This document shows positions 942-43,977 of a stretch of DNA of 64,000 bases, one piece after another. The position numbers and the translations under genes were made by a program. How positions within the stretch are numbered: position 1 is the first letter of the stretch; each line of letters opens with the position of its first letter. The DNA lies in contig NZ_CP128170.1 in assembly GCF_030347395.1 (NCBI RefSeq), positions 2,046,001-2,110,000 on the forward strand, read 5' to 3'. Origin of the DNA: Microbacterium sp. ET2 (lineage in GTDB: Bacteria; Actinomycetota; Actinomycetes; Actinomycetales; Microbacteriaceae). Below the pieces are notes generated by a model. That model was not told the origin of the DNA. It did no database searches and saw only the letters and a list, made by a program, of their open reading frames with translations.

Positions 942-2062
942 ATGCCACTCGATCCGATCTTCGCCGAGCGCCTTCGGGTCCACCGGCGATACCTCATCGG
1001 GCAAGCACTCACGGCCGCCAAGAAGCGCCTCACCGCGCTCTGGCCCTTCGCGCACGCGCTGAGCTCCGGCTCGACGCAGAAGCAGGATGCCGCGCCGCCG
1101 TCGGCCCGGCGACCGGCAACGCCTGAGCTGACGCCCGTCGCCGCCCGCGCCCGTGCGCGGGCGAAGCATCGTCGCGCCGCCCTGGCCTGGGATCGCACGG
1201 AGCTCGAGACCGTCGGAACCCCGGGCCCCGACATCCGCACGATCGAGCGCACCGTGGACGTTCCGGGACGGCCCGCCGTGCGCGTGCGCGTCTACGACCC
1301 GCGCTCGTCCGCCGCAGGCCCTGCCACGACGCCCGCACCCGCGGTGCTGGCGTTCTTCGGTGGCGCCTTCCGCATCGGCGGAATCGACTACCCGACCACC
1401 GACGCCGGCTTCCGCCGCCGCGCCGCCGATGCCGACGTCGTCATCGTCGCCGTCGACTACGCACTCGCTCCCGAGCACCGCTATCCCGTCGCGGTCGAAC
1501 AGGGCGCGGCGGCGCTCCGCTGGCTCTTCGCCCACGCCGCCGAGCTCGGCGTCGACGCGGGCCGCATCGGCATCCTCGGCACCTCCGCGGGCGCGAACCT
1601 CGCTGCGGCCGTCACCCTCCTCAACCGCGACGACGAAGGTCCGCTGCCCCTCCGACTCCAGGTGCTCGAGGTCCCGGTCCTCGACCTCACCGGCCGCCAT
1701 CTCGACCTCCGGGCCACCCGTGCGCTGGGCGTGCCGACCGTCATCGCGCTCCGCGGCTCCGCTCGGTCGCCCGCACCTACCTGCCTCATCGCCGTACGGC
1801 GCGCGAACCCCTCGCCTCGCCCCTCCGGGCCGCCTCGCACGCGGGACTCCCGCCCGCGGTCATCTTCACCGCCGAATTCGATCCGCTCCGCGGCGACGGC
1901 GCCGCCTACGCCGCAGCGCTCCGCGCGGCCGGCGTCGACGCCAGCGCGGTGCAGTACCTCGGCGTCACCCACGACACCCCCATCTTCACCGGCGTGCTTC
2001 CCGCGGCTCGGCGATGGCACGGCGACGTCGTCGCAGCCCTCCGTCGACTCCATGGACACTGA
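942..2062 (+). pseudogene. Alpha/beta hydrolase (HSL-like esterase), frame-disrupted
   Basis: Hormone-sensitive-lipase-type alpha/beta hydrolase (PF07859-like), expected to cleave carboxyl esters. The oxyanion region reads FFGGAFRIGG (the family usually has HGGG) and the nucleophile elbow reads GTSAGAN (usually GDSAG). The strand VDYALAPEHRYP is typical. After ALGVPTVIALR the starting frame loses similarity. Another frame continues with the family C-terminus (LPPAVIFTAEFDPLRGDG, then a Thr-His-Asp segment) and stops at 2062. One base appears to be missing near 1755. In the starting frame translation would run on through HU, which is an artefact of the shift. Whether the gene is truly broken cannot be told from one sequence. 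Confidence 0.7.
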
Positions 2063-2201
2063 TCGCGCCGCTCGACCTGCGCCGCCGCGGGATCATCCCG
2101 AATCCCGCCTCAGGCGTCACAACAGCACCACAGAACGCGCGACACGCCGCCCATTCCGTCCGCCAGGAGCCGAAATCCGCGAGATTCCGCGGTTCCGTGG
2201 G

Positions 2202-2207
2202 TATATT
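2202..2207 (+). promoter_or_regulatory. Possible -10 box for the HU gene
   Basis: TATATT stands out in an otherwise GC-rich leader about 90 bp before the HU start. No convincing -35 hexamer sits 17 bp upstream (GAGATT lies 15 bp upstream), so this is a tentative call. The stretch 2063-2297 shows no other gene. Confidence 0.35.
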
Positions 2208-2297
2208 CGACCCCGGTCGGTCCGACCAGCCGGCGGCGAACCCGCCCCGGTCCACGTAGCAGAAGGCGACCTGCGGTCGCCCTGGAGGACAATCCAC

Positions 2298-2585
2298 ATG
2301 GCTGACAAGTCCATCACCAAGACCGAACTCGTCGCGAGCATCGCGAGCGCCACGGGTCAGAGCCAGTCCGCCGTGTCCGGCGTGCTCGACTCGCTCTTCT
2401 CCACGGTGTCGGAGGCGGTGGCCAAGGGCAGCAAGGTCTCCATCCCCGGATGGATCTCCTTCGAGCAGGTCGACACCTCGGCTCGCACCGGCCGCAACCC
2501 CCAGACGGGCGAAGAGATCAAGATCCCCGCCGGCAAGCGCGTCAAGGTGACCGCCGGCTCCAAGCTCAAGGCTGCGGTCAAGTAA
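2298..2585 (+). CDS. hup: HU family DNA-binding protein
   Basis: Nucleoid-associated histone-like protein that binds and bends DNA as a dimer. The 95-residue length is normal for bacterial HU. The N-terminal helix pair (KTELVASIASATGQS) and the arm motif GRNPQTGEEIKIPAGKRVKV are clearly recognisable. One oddity is that the usual G-F-G turn before FEQ reads IPGWISFEQ. The start at 2298 is fixed by GGAGG at 2284-2288. It is a monocistron followed by a strong hairpin, and it lacks the Lys/Ala-rich C-terminal extension of mycobacterial HupB. Confidence 0.95.
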   Translation: MADKSITKTELVASIASATGQSQSAVSGVLDSLFSTVSEAVAKGSKVSIPGWISFEQVDTSARTGRNPQTGEEIKIPAGKRVKVTAGSKLKAAVK

Positions 2586-2602
2586 CCACTGCCGCACCTG
2601 AT

Positions 2603-2639
2603 CGAAGGGGGATGTCGCACAGCGCGGCATCCCCCTTCG
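2603..2639 (+). terminator. Hairpin terminator after HU
   Basis: Perfect 12-bp inverted repeat CGAAGGGGGATG / CATCCCCCTTCG with a 13-nt loop, 18 bp after the HU stop. No long U tract follows, as is common in actinobacterial terminators. Confidence 0.75.
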
Positions 2640-2691
2640 GCTTCCCCCGCGCGCCCAGCCGCCGCCCACCGCCCGCACGTAGGCTGGAGGG

Positions 2692-4695
2692 GTGAACTCC
2701 CGCGCGCTGCGGGCCACCGGGCCCGCGATCCTGGTCGCCGCGGCGCTCGTCACCCTCATCGCGGGACTCGCCCTCGGCGGGGGAGCAGCCCCGCTGCTCA
2801 TCGGCGATCCCGGCCCCGTCGCCCGCTGGGGCCTCCCGGTCGCCAAGCTCCTGGTCAACCTCTCCGCCGCCGGCATGGTCGGCGCTCTCGTCCTGGCGCT
2901 CTTCGCCCTCCGCGCGGGAGAGCGCGAGTTCGACGTCGCCCTCGACACCGCATCGGTCTCGGCGGCGCTCTTCACCGTCTCCGCCGCGGCCACCGGCTTC
3001 CTCACCTTCGTCGACGCGTTCAACCCGGCTGTCAACGCCGGCGCCGAGTTCGGAGCCCAGCTCGGCCGCTTCCTCGTCGACACCGAACCCGGCCGGGCGT
3101 GGCTCCTCACGACGGTCGCCGGCGCCGCCCTCACCGTTCTGACGTTCGCGGTGCGCTCCTGGCTCGCCACGATGCTCGTCGCCCTTGCCGCGATCGCGGC
3201 GCTCATCCCGATGGCCACGCAGGGCCACTCGGGGGAAGAGGCCAACCACAACTCCGCCGTCATCGCGCTCGCGCTTCACATCATCGCGGCCGCCGCATGG
3301 CTCGGCGGCCTCCTGCTCCTCGTCATCCTCCGGCCGGTCCTCGAGCGTTCCCGCCTGACCGTCGTGCTCAGCCGCTACTCGAGCATCGCGCTGGCCGCCT
3401 TCCTCGTCGTGGCCCTCTCGGGCACCGTCCGCGCCGCGATCGGCGTGGTCACCCCCGAGGCGCTCCTCAGCCCCTACGGCGCGATCCTGGCCGTGAAGGT
3501 GATCGCCCTCATCGCGATCGGTGTCTTCGGTGCCTGGTACCGCCGCGGCGCCATCGCACGACTGGATCAGAAGCCGGATGCCGCGGCCCGCCGCTTCTGG
3601 GGGATCATCGCCGTCGAGCTGGCGTTCATGGGCATCGCCAGCGGCGCCGCCGCCGCGCTCGCGCGCACGCCCCCTCCGGTCGACACCACCCTCCCGACCG
3701 TCCGCACCCCGGCCGAGGTCCTCACCGGAGCCCCGCTCCCGCCCGAGTTCACCCTCGACCGGTGGCTGACGGCGTGGGACCTCGATCTGCTGTGGGCGAC
3801 GGCGGCCGGCTTCGGGCTGTTCTTCTACCTCGCCGGCGTCTGGCGCCTCACCCGCCGCGGCGACCGGTGGCCCGTGTACCGCACGGTGCTGTGGACCCTC
3901 GGGATCGTGCTGCTGTTCTGGGTGACGAGCGGTCCGGTCAACGCCTACCAGGACTACCTGTTCAGCGCCCACATGCTCGGCCACATGCTGCTGTCGATGG
4001 CCATCCCCGCCCTGCTCGTGGCCGGTGCCCCGGTGACCCTGGCGGCGCGGGCGATCCACAAGCGCGACGACGGCACGCGCGGCGGCCGGGAGTGGATCCT
4101 CTGGGCGGTGCACACACCGTTGTCCCGCGTGCTGACGAATCCGTTCGTCGCCGCCGGGCTCTTCATCGGGTCGCTCTGGGCGTTCTACTACACCGATCTC
4201 TTCCGCTGGTCGCTCTACGACCACCTCGGCCACGAGTGGATGATCGCCCACTTCCTCATCACCGGATACCTCTTCGCCCTCACCCTCATCGGCATCGACC
4301 CCGTGCCCTGGCGTCTGCCGTACGCGGGCCGGCTGCTGCTCCTCATCGGCGTCATGGCGATGCACGCGTTCTTCGGCGTGGCCATGATGATGCAGTCCGG
4401 TCTCATGGTCGCCGAGTGGTTCGGCTCGATGGGCCGCACCTGGGGGCCCACGCCGGTGGAGGACCAGTACATCGGCGGCGGGCTCGCCTGGTCGGTGGGA
4501 GAGATCCCGACCCTGATCCTCGCGATCACCGTCGCCATCCAGTGGAGTCGCAGCGATGCCCGCGACCAGAAGCGCAGCGACCGTCACGCGGACCGCACCG
4601 ACGACGCCGAACTCGAGGCCTACAACGCCCAGCTCGCCGCCCTCGCCCAGCGCGACGCCGAGCGTGCCGAACGCGAAGCCCGCGTCAGCCGCTGA
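2692..4695 (+). CDS. CopD domain / CtaG-like membrane protein
   Basis: Polytopic membrane protein of 667 residues that joins two domains. The N-terminal half (~1-330) matches the CopD copper-resistance family, with helices around LLVNLSAAGMVGALV and a His-containing helix (ALHIIAAAAWLGG). The C-terminal half (~350-620) matches the CtaG/caa3 assembly family, with conserved His residues in FSAHMLGHMLLSM and HLGHEWMIAHFL. Such fusions are common in Actinobacteria and are linked to copper handling and cytochrome oxidase maturation; that role is inferred from the families. A charged cytoplasmic tail rich in Asp, Arg and Glu ends the protein. The start is a GTG. Confidence 0.88.
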   Translation: MNSRALRATGPAILVAAALVTLIAGLALGGGAAPLLIGDPGPVARWGLPVAKLLVNLSAAGMVGALVLALFALRAGEREFDVALDTASVSAALFTVSAAATGFLTFVDAFNPAVNAGAEFGAQLGRFLVDTEPGRAWLLTTVAGAALTVLTFAVRSWLATMLVALAAIAALIPMATQGHSGEEANHNSAVIALALHIIAAAAWLGGLLLLVILRPVLERSRLTVVLSRYSSIALAAFLVVALSGTVRAAIGVVTPEALLSPYGAILAVKVIALIAIGVFGAWYRRGAIARLDQKPDAAARRFWGIIAVELAFMGIASGAAAALARTPPPVDTTLPTVRTPAEVLTGAPLPPEFTLDRWLTAWDLDLLWATAAGFGLFFYLAGVWRLTRRGDRWPVYRTVLWTLGIVLLFWVTSGPVNAYQDYLFSAHMLGHMLLSMAIPALLVAGAPVTLAARAIHKRDDGTRGGREWILWAVHTPLSRVLTNPFVAAGLFIGSLWAFYYTDLFRWSLYDHLGHEWMIAHFLITGYLFALTLIGIDPVPWRLPYAGRLLLLIGVMAMHAFFGVAMMMQSGLMVAEWFGSMGRTWGPTPVEDQYIGGGLAWSVGEIPTLILAITVAIQWSRSDARDQKRSDRHADRTDDAELEAYNAQLAALAQRDAERAEREARVSR

Positions 4696-4710
4696 TCGTG
4701 CCGCCGGAGA

Positions 4711-5781
4711 TCACTGCGTCTCCGAGCCGGTGATCGAGATCGACGCCCGCCCCTCGGGGTCGACCGTGATGCTGCCCGCGAGGGTGAACGGCACGTCTTC
4801 CTCTGTGCGCTCCACGCGACCGTCGAAGAGCGAGCGGATGTCGACGGCGATCCGTGCCACAGCCGGGGCCGCCGCGATGGTCCAGTTCGCCCCGTCGGGC
4901 TCCAGTCGGATGGCGGGCTGCTGTGTGATCGACCAGGTCGGCGGCGAGACGATGCGGTCCTGCACCCGGTAGCCGAAGGGGCAGCCGGTCGGCTGGAGCA
5001 CCTCCTGGGTGGCGCACTCGGTGAGGAACTCCTCGACACGGTCCTGCACCACCGAGACGAACTCCTCGGTCGGCTGGGCCTGGAGGGACACCGGCACCGA
5101 GGAGAACGGGCTGTCCGACACCACGGCCACCCCGGGCGTGGTCGAGATCGCCGTGTCCACCGAGACGGAGTAGATCCCGGGGGAGAACACCAGCAGCGAC
5201 ACCGGTGCCGACGGGTCGGCCTCCGTGCCGTCGGGCGAAACCTGCCGCTTGTCCAGCGAGAAGCCGTTGACGTCGAAGGTCATCGACCCCTGCACGGCCA
5301 CCTGCATGACCGCGAGCGGGCTCGTCGCGAACCGCCAGGTGGGAAGCGGCCCCACCGATCCGTCGCGCTCGACCTCGAAGGTCGTGGTCCCCTCGAACTG
5401 ACCGGCCCGGTAGGCGGCGGTCACGCGGGTCACGCTGCGGTCGGTCTCCTCGCCCACGATCTCCACGCCGCCGAGGGCCGCGAGAGCGTCCCGACGCAGC
5501 AGCGCCTGCGAGGCGGTCGGGGGGAGACCCGCCGCCTCGAGCGCCTCGATGTCGACCGAGACCCCCGGGGTGGCCAGGGCTTCGGCCGCTCGCCCGTCGG
5601 CGAGGAGTCCCAGATACCGCTCGACGAAGGCGGCGGGGCTGTAGAACTCGCGGTAAAGCGTCGCGCCCGCCGCGACAAACGCGGCGACCAGGAGCGCCCC
5701 GACCACGCCCAGCACGGCCAGATCGGTGGCCAGGCGCGAGCGCGAGCGACGCCTGCCCCCCGCCGCCGCCCCCTGCTGCAT
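4711..5781 (-). CDS. Membrane-anchored conserved hypothetical protein
   Basis: 356 residues with an Arg-rich cytoplasmic N-terminus, one membrane helix (~20-42, LAVLGVVGALLVAAFVAAGA) and a large extracytoplasmic domain rich in beta-strand-like sequence. Two Cys (ECATQEVLQPTGCPFGY) could form a disulfide. I do not recognise an enzyme motif. The topology resembles actinobacterial surface proteins of unknown function. It converges with the CopD/CtaG gene (16 bp between stops). Confidence 0.8.
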   Translation of the reverse strand: MQQGAAAGGRRRSRSRLATDLAVLGVVGALLVAAFVAAGATLYREFYSPAAFVERYLGLLADGRAAEALATPGVSVDIEALEAAGLPPTASQALLRRDALAALGGVEIVGEETDRSVTRVTAAYRAGQFEGTTTFEVERDGSVGPLPTWRFATSPLAVMQVAVQGSMTFDVNGFSLDKRQVSPDGTEADPSAPVSLLVFSPGIYSVSVDTAISTTPGVAVVSDSPFSSVPVSLQAQPTEEFVSVVQDRVEEFLTECATQEVLQPTGCPFGYRVQDRIVSPPTWSITQQPAIRLEPDGANWTIAAAPAVARIAVDIRSLFDGRVERTEEDVPFTLAGSITVDPEGRASISITGSETQ

Positions 5782-5847
5782 GAGCCCAGTCTAGGAAACC
5801 GCTCCCCGGTCTGCGCCGAGCTCGCGGCATCCGTCTACCATGAACCG

Positions 5848-7212
5848 GTGACCACGCCCGCGCTCTCCGCCGAGCAGGAGGCGCTGTTCCGGCTCATCGA
5901 GGACTCCCGCGACCACGTCTTCGTCACCGGCCGCGCCGGAACCGGCAAGTCCACGCTGCTGCAGCACCTGGCGTGGAACACCTCCAAGCAGATCGCGGTG
6001 TGCGCCCCGACCGGCGTCGCCGCGCTCAACGTCGAGGGTCAGACGATCCATTCGCTGTTCCGGCTGCCGATCGGGCTCATCGCGAACACCGACCTCGACC
6101 AGTCCGATGCGACGCGGCGCATCCTCAACGCCATCGACACCCTGGTCATCGACGAGATCTCCATGGTCAACGCCGACCTCATGGACGGCATCGATCGCGC
6201 CCTCCGTCAGGCGCGGGGCCGGCGCGCCGAGCCCTTCGGGGGCGTCCAGATCGTCATGTTCGGCGATCCCTACCAGCTCGCTCCCGTGCCGCCCCGCGGC
6301 GACGAGATGCGTTACATCCGCGACCACTACCGCTCGTTCTGGTTCTTCGACGCCAAGGTGTGGACCGGTGAGGTCGCCGGCGACGGGCTGATGGAGCTCG
6401 GAGGGTACGGCGCCTCGCTGCACGTGCGCGAGCTCGCCGAGATCCACCGGCAGGCCGACCCCGCGTTCAAGGCGATGCTGAACGCCGTCCGTCACGGTCG
6501 GGTCACCGCCGACATCGCGCAGGTGCTCAACGACACCGGTGCCCGCACGCCCCCGCACCCCGACGACGGCGAGCACCCCATCATCACGCTCGCCACCCGC
6601 AACGACATCGTCAACAACATCAATCGCCGCCACCTCACCGAGCTCGTCGGCCGCGAGCAGACCGCGGTCGCCGAGATCAACGGCGACTTCGGGCGTGGTG
6701 AGGCGAACTACCCCGCCGACACCGAGCTGAAGCTCAAGGTGGGGGCTCAGGTGATGTTCCTGCGCAACGACGCCCAGGGCTACGGCGATCCGCCCCGGTG
6801 GGTGAACGGCACGATCGGCACGGTCACCCGCATCGCCGGCGGCACCGTGCGCGTCGAGGTCGACGGGCAGGAGTTCGATGTGGAGCCCGCGGTGTGGGAG
6901 AGGTTCCGCTACGCCTACAACGCCGGATCACGCACGCTCACCCGGGAGGTGGTCGCCGAGTTCACGCAGTTCCCGCTGCGGCTGGCGTGGGCGGTGACGA
7001 TCCACAAGTCGCAGGGCAAGACCTACGACCGCGCGGTGATCGACCTCGGTTCGGGCGCGTTCGCGCCCGGCCAGACCTACGTGGCGCTGTCGAGGCTCAC
7101 CTCGCTCGACGGGCTCTACCTCTCGCGGCCCCTCCGACCCAGCGACATCCGCGTGGATCCGGATGTCGCGCGGTGGATGCACGAGCACGTCCGCCGCCCC
7201 GCGGCATCCTGA
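5848..7212 (+). CDS. Pif1/RecD-like SF1 DNA helicase
   Basis: ATP-dependent 5'-3' helicase-like protein of 454 residues. Visible motifs in order are Walker A GRAGTGKST (~28-36), motif Ia CAPTGVAALN, Walker B VIDEISMV, motif III GDPYQLAPV, a C-terminal UvrD/RecD-type motif AWAVTIHKSQGKTYD and motif VI YVALSRLTSLDGLYL. Family members act at stalled forks and G-quadruplex DNA; a genome-maintenance role here is inferred. The start is a GTG at 5848, giving an N-terminus that runs straight into the first helicase motif. It stands alone and converges with the heme oxygenase gene. Confidence 0.88.
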   Translation: MTTPALSAEQEALFRLIEDSRDHVFVTGRAGTGKSTLLQHLAWNTSKQIAVCAPTGVAALNVEGQTIHSLFRLPIGLIANTDLDQSDATRRILNAIDTLVIDEISMVNADLMDGIDRALRQARGRRAEPFGGVQIVMFGDPYQLAPVPPRGDEMRYIRDHYRSFWFFDAKVWTGEVAGDGLMELGGYGASLHVRELAEIHRQADPAFKAMLNAVRHGRVTADIAQVLNDTGARTPPHPDDGEHPIITLATRNDIVNNINRRHLTELVGREQTAVAEINGDFGRGEANYPADTELKLKVGAQVMFLRNDAQGYGDPPRWVNGTIGTVTRIAGGTVRVEVDGQEFDVEPAVWERFRYAYNAGSRTLTREVVAEFTQFPLRLAWAVTIHKSQGKTYDRAVIDLGSGAFAPGQTYVALSRLTSLDGLYLSRPLRPSDIRVDPDVARWMHEHVRRPAAS

Positions 7213-34803: not shown

Positions 34804-35361
34804 ATGGGCCCGGTTCTCGTCCTCATCGACATCCAGCGCGACTACTTCCCCGGCGGGCGCTTCCCCCTCGTGGATCCCGATGCCGCGGCGGAGCGTGCTG
34901 CGGAACTGCTCGTGGCCTTCCGCGCGGCGGGGCTCCCCGTCGTGCACGTGCGACACGAGTCATCCGGTTCGGGAAGCTTCCTCGAGGCCGGGACACCGGG
35001 AGCCGAGATCGACCCGCGGGTCGCCCCCGAGGGCGACGAGACGGTCGTCGTGAAGCACCACCCGAATGCGTTCTGGGGAGGGCTGCTCGGCGAGGCGCTC
35101 GCCGCCCATGCCGGTGCCCCGCTCGTCGTCGCCGGGATGATGACGAGCATGTGCGTCGACGCCAGCGTTCGCGCGGCATCCGATCTCGGCTGGGAGGTGA
35201 CGGTCGCCGCCGACGCCTGCGCCGCCCCCGACCTGGCCTTCGGTGGCGTCACCGTCGGCGGAGCCGACGTGCACGCGGCCTTCCTCGCCGCCCTCGCGAG
35301 CGCCTACGCCCGGGTCGAGCCGGTCGCCGCGGTGGTCGCCGCGCTGCGCGCCCCCGCCTGA
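34804..35361 (+). CDS. Isochorismatase-like cysteine hydrolase
   Basis: 185 residues. The cysteine hydrolase triad is visible: Asp in VLIDIQRDYFPGG, Lys in VVVKHHPNAF and nucleophile Cys in VAGMMTSMCVDASVRAA, with the cis-peptide MTS before it. Such enzymes hydrolyse amides (nicotinamidase/isochorismatase superfamily). The substrate is not predictable. It lies 22 bp after the channel gene. Confidence 0.87.
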   Translation: MGPVLVLIDIQRDYFPGGRFPLVDPDAAAERAAELLVAFRAAGLPVVHVRHESSGSGSFLEAGTPGAEIDPRVAPEGDETVVVKHHPNAFWGGLLGEALAAHAGAPLVVAGMMTSMCVDASVRAASDLGWEVTVAADACAAPDLAFGGVTVGGADVHAAFLAALASAYARVEPVAAVVAALRAPA

Positions 35362-35408
35362 TCGGCGCGCGCCGGGGCGCGCGCCCCGCGCCTCCCCCGA
35401 CCCGCTCG

Positions 35409-36268
35409 CGACCCGTCGATTTCTGCGGCTGTCGCGCTGATCGGGCCGCACGTTTCGACGGGTCGCGCTCGGGGCCGCGGGTCCGACCCGCGCGCTACGC
35501 GCCGGCGCACACCCTGCCCGCGCACGACCGGTCGATTTCTGCGGCTGTCGTGCCGAGCGGGCCGCACCTTTTGACGGGTCGCGCTCGGGGCCGCGGGTCC
35601 GACCCGCGCGCTCCGCGCCCGCGCACACCGTGCCCGCGCACGACCGGTCGATTTCTGCGGCTGTCGCGCCGATCGGGCCGCACATTTTGACGGGTCGCGT
35701 TCGGGTCGCGGGTCCGACCCGCGCGCTCCGCGCCCGCGCACACCCCGCCCGCGCACGACCGGTCGATTTCTGCGGCTGTCGCGCCGACCGGGCCGCACAT
35801 TTTGACGGGTCGCGCTCGGGGCCGCGGGTCCGACCCGCGCGCTCCGCGCACACCCCGCCCGCACGCGACCCGTCGATTTCTGCGGCTGTCGCGCCGATCG
35901 TGCCGCACGTTTCGACGGGTCGCGTTCGGGGCGCGGGGTCGACCCGCGCGCTACGCGCCGGCGCACACCGTGCCCGCGCGCGACCGGTCGATTTCTGCGG
36001 CTGTCGCGCCGATCGGGCCGCACATTTTGACGGGTTGCGTTCGGGTCGCGGGTCCGACCCGCGCGCTCCGCGCCCGCGCACACCCCGCCCGCGCACGACC
36101 GGTCGATTTCTGCGGCTGTCGCGCCGATCGGGCCGCACATTTTGACGGGTCGCGCTCGGGGGCGCGGGGCCGACCCGCGCGCTGCGCGCCCCCGCACACC
36201 CTCCCCCCGCACGACCGGTCGATTTCTGCGGCCTGTTCGACGGCTCAACCGCAGAACTTGACGGGTCG
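35409..36268. repeat. Eight-copy array of a 57-bp inverted-repeat element
   Basis: Eight copies start at 35409, 35525, 35641, 35756, 35866, 35981, 36096 and 36212, a period of 110-116 bp. Each is 57 bp and bounded by CGACC[C/G]GTC and GACGGGTCG (one GACGGGTTG), with subterminal GATTTCTGCGGC and a matching GCCGCA on the other side, so each can fold into a hairpin. The ~58-bp spacers are also conserved and carry GCGGGTCCGACCCGC. The last copy keeps the ends and length but has a diverged centre. This explains the gene-free stretch 35362-36381. No protein is supported despite long open frames. Confidence 0.9.
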
Positions 36269-36381
36269 CGCAACGCCGTCGCGAGCCGGTCGACTCCTGC
36301 ACAAACGCGCGAATCGGCGGGCTATCCACCGGCGCGGTTGCGACGCGTCATCCGGTATCCAGGTGGCGGGATGCTGGGGCG

Positions 36382-37293
36382 ATGCCGCATCCGAAACCTC
36401 TGCCCACAGCTCTTGCCGGCAAACCGTTCGCGGTGGCCGAGGCGCTTCGCGAGGGAGTGTCGCCGGGGCGTCTTCGGGCCCGTGATCTCGATGCTCCGTT
36501 CCAGGGTGTACGTAGCCGAGCCGGCGGGGATTCGTCGTTCGTCGGGCGCGTGCGCGCGGTGGCCCCGCGCCTCCGCGACGGCGACGCGGTGAGCCATCTC
36601 GCTGCGCTCGCGCTCGTCGGAGCCGACGCGATCGGCGGCCTGTCGACGATGGTCGACGTCTGTTCTCGGGCGCCCCTGACCCGCATGCGGGCCCGCGGCG
36701 TGCGGGGGCATCAGATCATCGAGGGCTCCGTCCGCGTCGGCGCCGTGGCCGGCTTACCCGCGGTGCACCCCGTCGATGCCTGGTGTCAGCTCGCCTCCGA
36801 CCACTCCGTGCGAGAACTCATCATCGTCGGCGATGCGCTGGTTCGCCGCCAGAACCCCATCGCTGACCGGGACGAACTTCGGCGCGCGACCGCGCAGTGG
36901 AGCGGTCGCCGCGGCGCGAAGCGGCTGAGGGAGGCCGAAGCGCTGGTGCGCGAGGGGACCGACTCTCCGCGCGAGACGCGGCTGCGCCTCGACGCTGAGG
37001 CCTACGGACTGCCGGAACCGGTGGTGAACCACCCCGTCTACGACGAAACCGGGCAGCTCGTCGCGATCCTCGATCTGGCTTACCCGGAGTACCGCGTCGG
37101 GCTCGAGTACGACGGCGACCACCACCGCACCGATGACGGGCAGTACTACCGCGACCTCGAGCGGCTCGACGCCCTCGCGCGGCTCGGGTGGCGTGACGTC
37201 CGCGTCACGAGAGAGCACCGCGGCATCCGGCTGAGCCTGGCACTGAGCAGAGTGGCCGATGCCCTCCGGGATCGCGGATGGCGGCCCGGGTGA
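36382..37293 (+). CDS. DUF559/Vsr-like nuclease-fold protein
   Basis: 303 residues. The N-terminal part resembles the AbiEi-type winged helix seen in this actinobacterial family (FAVAEALREGVSPGRLRARDL). The C-terminal part carries a PD-(D/E)XK/Vsr-like core: SPRETRLRL (Glu), AILDLAYPEYRVGLEYDGDHHR (Asp ... Glu), then RDLERLDALARLGWRDVRVT. This suggests DNA binding or cleavage, but no activity is proven. The gene sits between the 57-bp repeat array and a solitary 57-bp copy. Confidence 0.75.
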   Translation: MPHPKPLPTALAGKPFAVAEALREGVSPGRLRARDLDAPFQGVRSRAGGDSSFVGRVRAVAPRLRDGDAVSHLAALALVGADAIGGLSTMVDVCSRAPLTRMRARGVRGHQIIEGSVRVGAVAGLPAVHPVDAWCQLASDHSVRELIIVGDALVRRQNPIADRDELRRATAQWSGRRGAKRLREAEALVREGTDSPRETRLRLDAEAYGLPEPVVNHPVYDETGQLVAILDLAYPEYRVGLEYDGDHHRTDDGQYYRDLERLDALARLGWRDVRVTREHRGIRLSLALSRVADALRDRGWRPG

Positions 37294-37303
37294 CGGCTGC
37301 GCG

Positions 37304-37360
37304 CGACCCGTCAAGAATCGTCGGTCCGCGGCCGGGTGAGCCGCAGGAATCGACGGGTCG
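37304..37360. repeat. Solitary 57-bp inverted-repeat element
   Basis: Starts CGACCCGTC and ends GACGGGTCG with a perfect 9-bp inverted repeat and exactly the 57-bp length of the array copies. Read on the minus strand it begins CGACCCGTCGATTCCTGCGG, close to the array consensus. It starts 11 bp after the nuclease-like gene stop. Confidence 0.85.
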
Positions 37361-37404
37361 TGGCAGCGATCAGGCGGGTGGGCGCGGGGCAGGGGCGGGC
37401 CCGG

Positions 37405-38001
37405 TCAGGCCCGCGGCTCGATGCGCAGCACCTCGGGCGAGTCGCCGACCGTCAGGTCATCGATGACCCGGATGCTGCGGGCCACCTGATCCACGAACGG
37501 GATCACCGTCCCCACCCGCTCCCGGTCGGAGCACACCGCCGTCAGCGTGACGAGGTGGGTTCCGGTGTCCCACGTGTAGGTGGCGAATGGCGGTGTGCGA
37601 GGCTCGGGCGGCAGCGCCATGACCAGACGCTCGCCGACACCCAGGTGAGGGTTGTGGAACGACTCGGTGTCGTGGTACTCGATCGGCATCATCGCCCGCG
37701 CGGTGCGCAGCTGCGGGGTGAGCTCCTGCAGCTGGGCCATCATCACGACGAGCTCGGGGTCGGCCTTCCAGACCCAGATGAGAACACGGCCGTCGGCACG
37801 ACGCATCAGCAGCGGTGCCGCCTGACTCATCATCCATGCCATCCCGCGGCTTCCCGGGCGCTCCTCGGCGCCCATCGCCCGATTGGCCTGGCCCAGCAGC
37901 ATCCGGATAGCCGCCTTGCGATGGCGACGCCCGCGGAATCCGAGCGAACCGGTGACGGGAACCCAACGATCGGGGGAGGCATCGGCCTGAAGTCGAGGCA
38001 T
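37405..38001 (-). CDS. Conserved hypothetical protein
   Basis: 198 residues with no signal peptide or recognised domain. Hydrophobic patches are short (GMAWMMSQAAPLLM). Sequence such as PELVVMMAQLQELTPQL, TYTWDTGTHLVTLTAV and QVARSIRVIDDLTV suggests an alpha/beta fold. It is divergent from the glycosyltransferase pair, 155 bp apart. Function unknown. Confidence 0.65.
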   Translation of the reverse strand: MPRLQADASPDRWVPVTGSLGFRGRRHRKAAIRMLLGQANRAMGAEERPGSRGMAWMMSQAAPLLMRRADGRVLIWVWKADPELVVMMAQLQELTPQLRTARAMMPIEYHDTESFHNPHLGVGERLVMALPPEPRTPPFATYTWDTGTHLVTLTAVCSDRERVGTVIPFVDQVARSIRVIDDLTVGDSPEVLRIEPRA

Positions 38002-42372: not shown

Positions 42373-43977
42373 ATGGGGACACCGTATGCGGTCGCGATCG
42401 ACCTGCGCGACGAATCGACGTCCGTGGCGATCGCCGAACGGCTGCCGGACGGCGCGCTCGCTGTGCGCCCGGTCCTCGAAGGGTCCGACGGCGGCATACC
42501 GACGACGGTGTTCCTGGGGGACGACGACGTGGTCTTCGGTGAGGCGGCGCTCGAACTCGGCCTCGCCGAGCCGGATCGCCTGATCGACGGTTTCGTGTCC
42601 CGCGTGGCAGAGGCCGGCGCGTTCTTCGAGGTGCACGGCGAGCGGGTCACACCGCCGCAGTTGGTCGCGTGGGTCGTCGACGACGTCGTCCACCGGGTGA
42701 CGGGACTGATGGGAGAGGCTCCGGCGAGCATCGGAGTGCTCGTGCCCGACGCGTGGAGCGATGCGCGCCTGGCCGCCGTGGAGGAGGAGCTGCGCGCCGA
42801 CGGCCACCGCGCCGAGTTCCTCGACAGACTCGATTCCACCGCTCTCGCCTTCGCCCGCAGCGCGCCGTACTTCGGCAGCCGGATGATCGTGTCGAGTGTC
42901 GCGGATGACACATCAGTGGAATCTGCGGTGCTGCGCATCGGCGGCGACGGGGTCGTGAATCGGTTGGCCGATCCGGTCACGATCGAGCTGGATGCGGGCC
43001 TCGACCACCGGCAGGATGCCGCGGACGTGCGGCAGGCGATCCTCGACGCCCTTGCTGCGGCCGGCCGGGCCCTCGAGGATATGCACGCCGTCATCGTCAG
43101 CGGCGAACCCGCCGTCGTCGAGCCGATCGCGCCGACGATCGCCTCGCAGCTCGGGAGACCCCTTGAAGCGCTCGCCGACGTCGGTGCCTTCGCGGCGGTC
43201 GGTGCGGCGTGGGACCTCTCGGCGGAGCTCGCGCCCGTTGCGCCGCTGACCGCGGTGCTGCCCTCCGCCGGGGCGACGGCCGCATCCGCCGGCAGTGCGT
43301 CGCCCGCCGTCTCCACGACGGCGATCTCGTCGCCGACCGACCCGGCTGCGGGTTCCCGCCCCGCGCGCTCGAGGCGATGGATCGCCGTGTCCGCGGCGGT
43401 GGTCGCGATGGTCGCGGTCGTGGGTGGGGCCTCGGCCCTCGCCCTGGGAGTCGGCGGCACGCCCGAGGTAGACCAGGAGGTTCCTGCAGTGGTCGCGCCG
43501 ACTCGTTCCCCCTCGGAACGCGAGGTTCCCGCCTCCCCGACCCCCGGTCCCACGTCTCCGGCATCGGTGACGCCCGTGCCTTCCCCCACGAGTGAGATTG
43601 TCGTCGACGGGCCGACCGAGGCAAGCGACCGGCGCACGTCCGCCCGCCCGACCCCCACGAGGTCGACCCCTGTCGCATCGACGCCGCCGAGGGCGACGTC
43701 TCCGACGCCGACGTCGCCCTCGGCCACCTCGCCCGCGACCACGCCGTCGCCGTCGGTCACGGCGTCGCCGCCGGTCACGCCCTCCCCGGAACCGAGTGAG
43801 TCATCCCCGACGCCGGATCCCCCGCCCGCCTCGCCGACGCCGAGTCCGTCCGAACCGGAGGAGCCGGGGGAGCCCGGAGTGCCCGGGGAGCCGGGGGAGC
43901 CAGGTGAGCCGGAGAACCCGACGGAACCCTTCGTCCCGGATCCGGGCAACGAGGTACCGCCGGGGACTACTCCCTGA
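42373..43977 (+). CDS. Hsp70-like protein with membrane helix and Pro-rich tail
   Basis: 534 residues. Residues ~1-280 follow an actin/Hsp70 nucleotide-binding layout (PYAVAIDLRDESTSVAIAERL, GIPTTVFLGDDDVVFGEAAL, HAVIVSGEPAVVEPIAPTI). The phosphate-1 loop is degenerate (DLRDES instead of DLGTT). After an Ala/Ser linker there is one membrane helix (~338-360, WIAVSAAVVAMVAVVGGASALAL). Then comes a Ser/Thr/Pro-rich extracytoplasmic tail of ~170 residues ending in collagen-like GEPGEPGEP repeats. The chaperone substrate domain is missing. Function unknown; a sensor or wall-spanning role is possible. Confidence 0.75.
   Translation: MGTPYAVAIDLRDESTSVAIAERLPDGALAVRPVLEGSDGGIPTTVFLGDDDVVFGEAALELGLAEPDRLIDGFVSRVAEAGAFFEVHGERVTPPQLVAWVVDDVVHRVTGLMGEAPASIGVLVPDAWSDARLAAVEEELRADGHRAEFLDRLDSTALAFARSAPYFGSRMIVSSVADDTSVESAVLRIGGDGVVNRLADPVTIELDAGLDHRQDAADVRQAILDALAAAGRALEDMHAVIVSGEPAVVEPIAPTIASQLGRPLEALADVGAFAAVGAAWDLSAELAPVAPLTAVLPSAGATAASAGSASPAVSTTAISSPTDPAAGSRPARSRRWIAVSAAVVAMVAVVGGASALALGVGGTPEVDQEVPAVVAPTRSPSEREVPASPTPGPTSPASVTPVPSPTSEIVVDGPTEASDRRTSARPTPTRSTPVASTPPRATSPTPTSPSATSPATTPSPSVTASPPVTPSPEPSESSPTPDPPPASPTPSPSEPEEPGEPGVPGEPGEPGEPENPTEPFVPDPGNEVPPGTTP

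Follow-up and report, generated by a model that had tools for sequence, protein, structure and literature searches.

The array and its neighbours

The stretch of DNA analysed here, which we call the window, is 64,000 nucleotides long and corresponds to positions 2046001-2110000 of the single 3,604,840-bp contig that makes up the genome of Microbacterium sp. ET2 (G000). Within it, an isochorismatase-family gene (34804..35361, + strand; ORF and sequence search) is followed, 47 bp past its stop, by a tandem array at 35409..36268, for which repeat and pattern searches give a unit of one 57-bp element plus a spacer of 53-59 bp. Beyond the array lies a gene on the + strand (36382..37293) with a weak profile match to REase_MTES_1575 (PF18741), below the curated cut-off, and then a solo copy of the element, 57 bp long and on the - strand (37304..37360; pattern search), located 10 bp past the stop of that gene and between convergent genes.

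The eight elements of the array are all read on the + strand. Seven of them (35409..35465, 35525..35581, 35641..35697, 35756..35812, 35866..35922, 36096..36152 and 36212..36268) were found by the pattern search of the window and appear in the genome-wide list; copy 6 (35981..36037), recovered by a search of the window, has its right end mutated to GACGGGTTG. Start-to-start distances across the array are 116, 116, 115, 110, 115, 115 and 116 bp. The spacers implied by the start positions are therefore variable (53, 58 or 59 bp) and the elements constant at 57 bp, the spacer having been multiplied along with the element. A first-pass annotation had described eight 57-bp copies with fixed ends, a period of 110-116 bp and a last copy with a different centre. 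The length of all eight, the period and the account of the eighth copy, which differs in its centre and shares its ends and length with the others, agree with our measurements; the right end it gave for every copy is carried by seven of the eight, copy 6 being the exception, and the ninth copy at 37304-37360, outside the interval it described, had been missed. A coding repeat was rejected as the identity of the array, the unit lengths not all being multiples of three.

A second Microbacterium genome, G086, is syntenic with the window: the isochorismatase gene is followed by two elements in the interval of the array (locus L051), the same next gene and two further elements. The REase_MTES_1575-like gene thus sits between element copies in both genomes.

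Dispersal and fixed length

The whole genome was searched with the exact ends CGACC[CG]GTC...GAC[CG]GGTCG and a free gap of 25-50. This returned 32 paired ends, of which 31 were exactly 57 bp long, compared with 0 for a reversed control pattern, and the array is for this reason not a product of chance. With up to two end mismatches allowed, 49 distinct copies were counted among the extracted G000 loci and the window slice. Other arrays in the same genome have periods of their own: 143-144 bp at 1337463, mostly 115 bp at 1703788 and 99-106 bp at 2576320. The first-pass annotation had proposed such a consensus search, and had reckoned with an element confined to the array or of varying length elsewhere; what emerged is an element dispersed through the genome at a nearly invariant length.

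Among 149 Microbacterium genomes, the exact-end pattern occurs more than once in only three, namely G000 (32), G086 (16) and M. kunmingense (G051; 14). A single match is present in 23 further genomes, just one of which (G059) is 57 bp long. The strict 57-bp pattern occurs in 31 stretches among named GTDB genomes: 11 in Herbiconiux ginsengi, 10 in M. kunmingense, six in H. solani, two in 'Corynebacterium-like bacterium B27' and one each in a Herbiconiux MAG and Microbacterium sp. AK009. The extension to other Microbacterium genomes that had been proposed along with the consensus search thus yielded the same pairs in two other named Microbacterium, M. kunmingense and AK009.

In Herbiconiux, 22 half-sites that had shown no matching partner in an earlier search were examined (three more such half-sites of H. 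solani stand outside the sample). All but one of them, 21 in number, have their best partner at a length of exactly 57; for the remaining one it is 56, with a shortened centre. A looser pattern for the second end matched 11 of 398 Microbacteriaceae genomes, nine of which have listed elements with a total length of 56 or 57.

Half-sites and centre

Symmetrization of 83 distinct elements from G000, G086 and G051 gave a half-site consisting of CGACCCGTC, R, an A-rich stretch, G17 and G20, followed by the free centre. G17 is present in 165 and G20 in 162 of the 166 half-sites; the ends of the half-site had served for picking the elements, G17 and G20 had not. In Microbacterium elements, CG tends to occupy positions -1 and 0, and in H. 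solani conservation extends several bases further outward. The element is two half-sites of ~22 bp that face each other across a centre free in sequence and fixed in length.

In nine sets of copies, seven of which were picked by covariance models, the mean pairwise difference (taking the better of two orientations for each pair) was 1.4-16.3% per arm site, compared with 41-55% per centre site. Centres this different imply that the copies are not freshly made, and hence that selection or correction maintains the arms, or else that the centre is renewed at copying.

Wider relatives and dialects

Two covariance models, R1 built from 38 sequences and R2 from 47, were used to find more distant relatives; both are 57 positions long, and the counts that follow come from at most 14 places scored per genome, without a shuffled-genome control. 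At E <= 1e-4, R1 matched 85 of 398 Microbacteriaceae genomes, representing 36 of 85 genera. Across the order, R2 had matches in 58 of 396 genomes, of which 18 are Microbacteriaceae and 40 belong to other families; 12 of those 40 had at least four matches. Models of this length, scored at so few places, cannot prove constancy of length, which is established by the free-gap searches for the CGACCC dialect only.

Inspection covered 40 loci of R1 (15 genomes) and 40 of R2 (14 genomes), all taken from among the high-scoring places listed. In these 80 model-picked loci, the arms are alike within most genomes that have multiple copies and different between lineages. Examples are CGATCCGTCACGAA.. in G528, TGATCCGTCACTTTCGGCTAGT in G202, TGAGGGGTCAA.. 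in G009, a Microbacterium, and CGCGGGGTCACTTACGGCCCAT in G904, which is common to its relatives G856 and G743; arms are mixed in G223, G330 and G472. Close species have one dialect in common, and the dialects are therefore lineage-specific rather than species-specific. G2, A3, G7, C9 and G17 are invariant across all 47 sequences of the second alignment; the G904 dialect type lacks A3. Judged by these matches, the family is scattered through the genome of the window and a number of related actinobacteria in lineage-specific spellings.

The G904 dialect was matched on plasmids only in NZ_AP024648.1 and NZ_AP024649.1, large replicons of Arthrobacter sp. StoSoilB13, at 27 places, which suggests that the G904 group is Arthrobacter or near it. 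It found no match in phages, the strict pattern had 0 matches in viral contigs and the window array had none in plasmids. A phage or plasmid origin was rejected on these results.

A change of dialect can be followed between B27 and H. ginsengi. Three element loci could be matched between them (flanks 82-92% alike). In each, both genomes have their 57-bp element at an identical location, and the inner arms have switched on both sides, from TGCCG/TGTCG-type to GGTGG/GGTTG-type. Element loci of B27 were compared only with element loci of H. ginsengi and, since both sets were chosen for carrying elements, the comparison holds no information on the frequency of empty sites.

Position at gene ends

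The elements are intergenic, with few overlaps with called genes (calls from our own codon-usage script). Outside G000, G086, G051 and AK009, their neighbours are convergent in 77 cases, co-directional in 55 and divergent in five (n=137), where three duplicate loci are counted once, three element-overlapping gene calls in one set are counted as called, and one gene-overlapping locus of another set is left out together with loci that have no neighbour. For the remaining gene pairs of the H. ginsengi loci, the count is 3 convergent, 21 co-directional and 17 divergent. Of the 30 downstream stops in H. ginsengi, 29 lie 3-37 bp from the element; of the 29 in H. solani, 13 lie within 37 bp. For G000, G086 and G051 together the count is 19 convergent, 14 co-directional and six divergent, the divergent positions amounting to 2/19, 3/10 and 1/10, respectively, and the one element of AK009 sits between divergent genes. 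At L174, the gap between convergent stops and the two sides of the element is down to 9 and 3 bp, and gaps this short leave no space for another terminator.

This position raises the question of whether the elements are plain intrinsic terminators, in which an RNA hairpin past the stop would end transcription and the similarity of copies would reflect shared descent or conversion. They share with bidirectional intrinsic terminators a place downstream of stop codons and between convergent genes. A stem-loop shortly past the stop codon is indeed present, most clearly in H. ginsengi and more weakly in the group of the window, and very stable folds are obtained for Herbiconiux elements (e.g. -45.2 kcal/mol, z -10.6). 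Pairing is also compensated between dialects, 18 of 23 pairs having changed on both sides, with a cross-dialect covariation score of 0.605 compared with 0.189 for shuffles (0/500) and at most 0.144 for slid controls. Within H. ginsengi, covariation is again found (z 4.7, or 3.6 once near-identical copies are removed).

Within H. solani there is no covariation beyond shuffles (z 0.9), and in the three Microbacterium genomes shuffled copies show more pairing of the inner arms than the real ones do (z -3.0, -2.7 and -1.3; -1.3, -2.0 and -1.3 without near-identical copies). Palindromy is thus kept in the wider family and is degrading or asymmetric in the group of the window; given this poor pairing and the decay of some copies, the Microbacterium sites may be relics.

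Other observations do not fit an RNA hairpin. Of seven Microbacterium copies folded, L035 (z -1.4) and L044 (z -1.7) were hardly better than shuffled, the other five ranging from -2.5 to -8.0. In 35 co-directional elements, read in the direction of transcription, there is no excess of G-U over A-C mismatches (22 vs 21, a comparison of modest power; 12 vs 8 in an earlier, smaller count), on which basis the RNA hairpin was rejected as the object of selection. The same 35 elements have no U-tract, T per 12 nt being 1.83 downstream and 2.14 upstream. Unlike bidirectional intrinsic terminators, then, the elements have neither U-tract nor RNA-strand asymmetry, and they have lineage-specific arms and a fixed length; nothing about a hairpin calls for a single arm sequence per genome or for a length of exactly 57 bp. 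We regard plain intrinsic termination as improbable. The missing G-U excess and the T content that is not raised, taken together with the dialects, favour reading of the element at the level of DNA. A search of seven loci against Rfam matched only a tRNA, and that of window positions 35300-37450 gave one match at chance level, outside the elements.

Comparison with known repeats

REPIN-type repeats are linked to RAYT transposases, and most studies of them concern Proteobacteria. They are defined by two inverted conserved ends separated by a short, highly diverse spacer (PMC8049555), and REPIN and REP sequences form tandem clusters of element plus flanks (PMC8049555, PMC3116915); according to the first of these sources, REPINs also occur in E. 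coli genomes that lack RAYT. The first-pass annotation had likened the layout of the array to REPINs, and the 57-bp pairs bear this out, being dispersed and extragenic, with inverted conserved ends, a diverse centre, fixed spacing and tandem clusters that include the flanks. They differ in being actinobacterial and in that related species have switched arms at shared positions. They differ further in that the Y1 transposase (PF01797) was found in none of eight element-bearing genomes and that half-site hairpins, which each REP half of a REPIN forms, do not stand out from shuffles (for 20 half-sites of 10 elements, none fell below all 200 base shuffles; best 10 of 200). For these last two reasons, membership of a REPIN/RAYT system is unsupported. 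The profile was likewise absent from 35 members of the genus; it was found in two of 58 relatives, neither within Microbacterium, and, as a positive control, in five of 14 genomes including E. coli.

Integron attC sites are imperfect palindromes past the stop of a gene, with a variable centre, a GTT core and species-typical families. The 57-bp elements resemble them in these respects except for the core, which is absent by inspection from the CGACCC ends; they also differ in being dispersed and in lying between convergent genes.

The CGTC-tagged REPs are palindromes of 20-40 bp with an unpaired CGTC tag, described from five phyla that do not include actinobacteria in the part of the account available (Di Nocera 2013, PMC3733652). 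They too have no dedicated transposase known and form dimers, and 'CGTC' is also contained in the CGACCC-dialect arm; there, however, it lies inside the paired arm rather than in an unpaired tag. The first-pass annotation knew of no such family in Microbacteriaceae, and our literature search found no description of an actinobacterial family of 57-bp pairs. Repeat counts are given for Arthrobacter livingstonensis in a text that, in the portion available, does not describe the 57-bp family (PMC12306157). The family is real and wide, undescribed in the literature searched, and has the anatomy of REPINs without REPIN machinery having been found.

Copy number, movement and machinery

A REPIN-like non-autonomous mobile element would offer a different account, in which a transposase other than Y1/RAYT recognizes the ends and copies the pair into the intergenic space at gene ends, the copies persisting as a population. 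Anatomy and tandem clusters are as in REPINs (PMC8049555, PMC3116915). The CGACCC dialect is patchy, with more than one match in only 3/149 Microbacterium genomes, and yet Herbiconiux and B27 have the same ends. Furthermore, at L121 of H. solani (2007-6999), a MarR-family and a Suc_Fer-like gene enclose a subtilase (Peptidase_S8) gene that is flanked on both sides by a 57-bp element. In five other Herbiconiux (G187, G519, G545, G570 and G571), the aligned parts of the two enclosing genes are 28-75 bp apart, and no such palindrome was found in the interval. This suggests movement of elements together with a gene, and is the one hint of movement that we have.

Against this stands the comparison of G000 with G086. 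Orthology was tried for 12 loci, of which seven were matched within the stretches extracted and six could be aligned across the element; none of the six aligned sites was empty, so that recent movement in Microbacterium, as implied by the mobility that the first-pass annotation had considered, is unsupported. Instead, the partner of L058 has decayed by deletion and others have one or two changed end bases. In five orthologous pairs the ends differ at 6/90 sites and the rest at 38/195 (6/72 and 28/156 once L044/L057, both members of which had been selected for exact ends, are set aside; L039 was compared with the best-matching of its three G086 copies). Centres far more diverged than arms are also not expected if fixed copies simply decay. 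What does differ between these close relatives, in a comparison likewise proposed beforehand, is the local tandem number, 1 vs 3 at L039 and three intact vs one at L037. As far as alignments can tell, copy number changes by local tandem duplication.

Pfam scans of neighbouring genes covered part of the neighbours listed, 103 in the wider group and 50 in the Microbacterium group. The commonest families reach 4/103 and 3/50 genes, and there is no transposase or recombinase among the 25 commonest of each set, families beyond these being present in at most 2/103. The mobile element accordingly strikes us as a doubtful, if real, possibility. The 36382-37293 gene is disfavoured as a mobiliser: at L137 of M. 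kunmingense (~2300-3310) its ortholog lacks the N-terminal part, only the C-terminal part being present in the stretch, and the elements of that species persist, a 57-bp copy following the remnant itself. The DNA before the remnant presumably represents an IS110-type transposase.

Interpretation

In the window array, one member of an old and dispersed family of inverted pairs, 56-57 bp long, has been amplified locally in tandem together with its spacer. The explanation that we put forward, if tentatively, is that the family constitutes RAYT-free, REPIN-like sites at gene ends that are recognized at the DNA level by a putative factor. A sequence-specific protein would read both half-sites in double-stranded (or extruded) DNA; its specificity would drift between lineages and drag the sites of a genome along, giving rise to the dialects; and, at the ends of genes, the site would most probably serve as an insulator or as an end point for transcription from both directions. 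The data show the anatomy, the dispersal, the fixed length (for the CGACCC dialect), the dialects, the gene-end position and that species differ in local copy number; the factor, for which no candidate was found in our searches, and the role in termination or insulation are inferred. Weighing against this reading are the poor inner-arm pairing and the decay of some copies in Microbacterium, the divergent positions in G000, G086, G051 and AK009, the 13 of 29 stops within 37 bp in H. solani and the mixed arms of G223, G330 and G472. Rather unlikely, in our estimation, is that the element is specifically a protein-dependent two-way transcription end signal, i.e. a 57-bp gene-end site with 22-bp half-sites and a rapidly drifting putative factor, with the sites of a genome, even orthologous ones, changing together.

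REP/BIME sites are linked to gyrase. A site for a chromosome-organizing or topology protein (gyrase or a nucleoid protein) at convergent gene ends, like REP/BIME in E. coli and strengthened by phased arrays, would agree with the convergent positions and fixed spacing of the elements, and REP/BIME are bound by several proteins (PMC2817692, in part). Half-sites of ~22 bp that change between lineages are unlike the site of a conserved housekeeping protein, however, and we consider this very improbable.

A widespread actinobacterial set with REPIN anatomy, strict length and dialects, in which no RAYT was found, provides a second case in which to ask what maintains such pairs. If a factor does read the sites, the switching of arms at orthologous positions would allow a direct test of whether a binder co-evolves with dozens of sites, and the system may help explain how genes are ended in high-GC bacteria.

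Neighbouring repeats

Other repeats were encountered alongside the elements. At L042 (~3960-4260), a run of short CGCGACCCGCCCGCGCCTTGCCCG-type repeats adjoins the G000 element cluster at 2769 kb, and in the window a short GC-rich repeat (GGCTCCCCGGGC..; ~43859-43928, minus strand) looks like a proline/glycine-rich coding repeat. In H. solani, a 57-bp copy at L082 (797-7419) is accompanied by a sister family of pairs 56 bp long, whose ends are CGAGCCGTC and whose inner arms are CGCCC.
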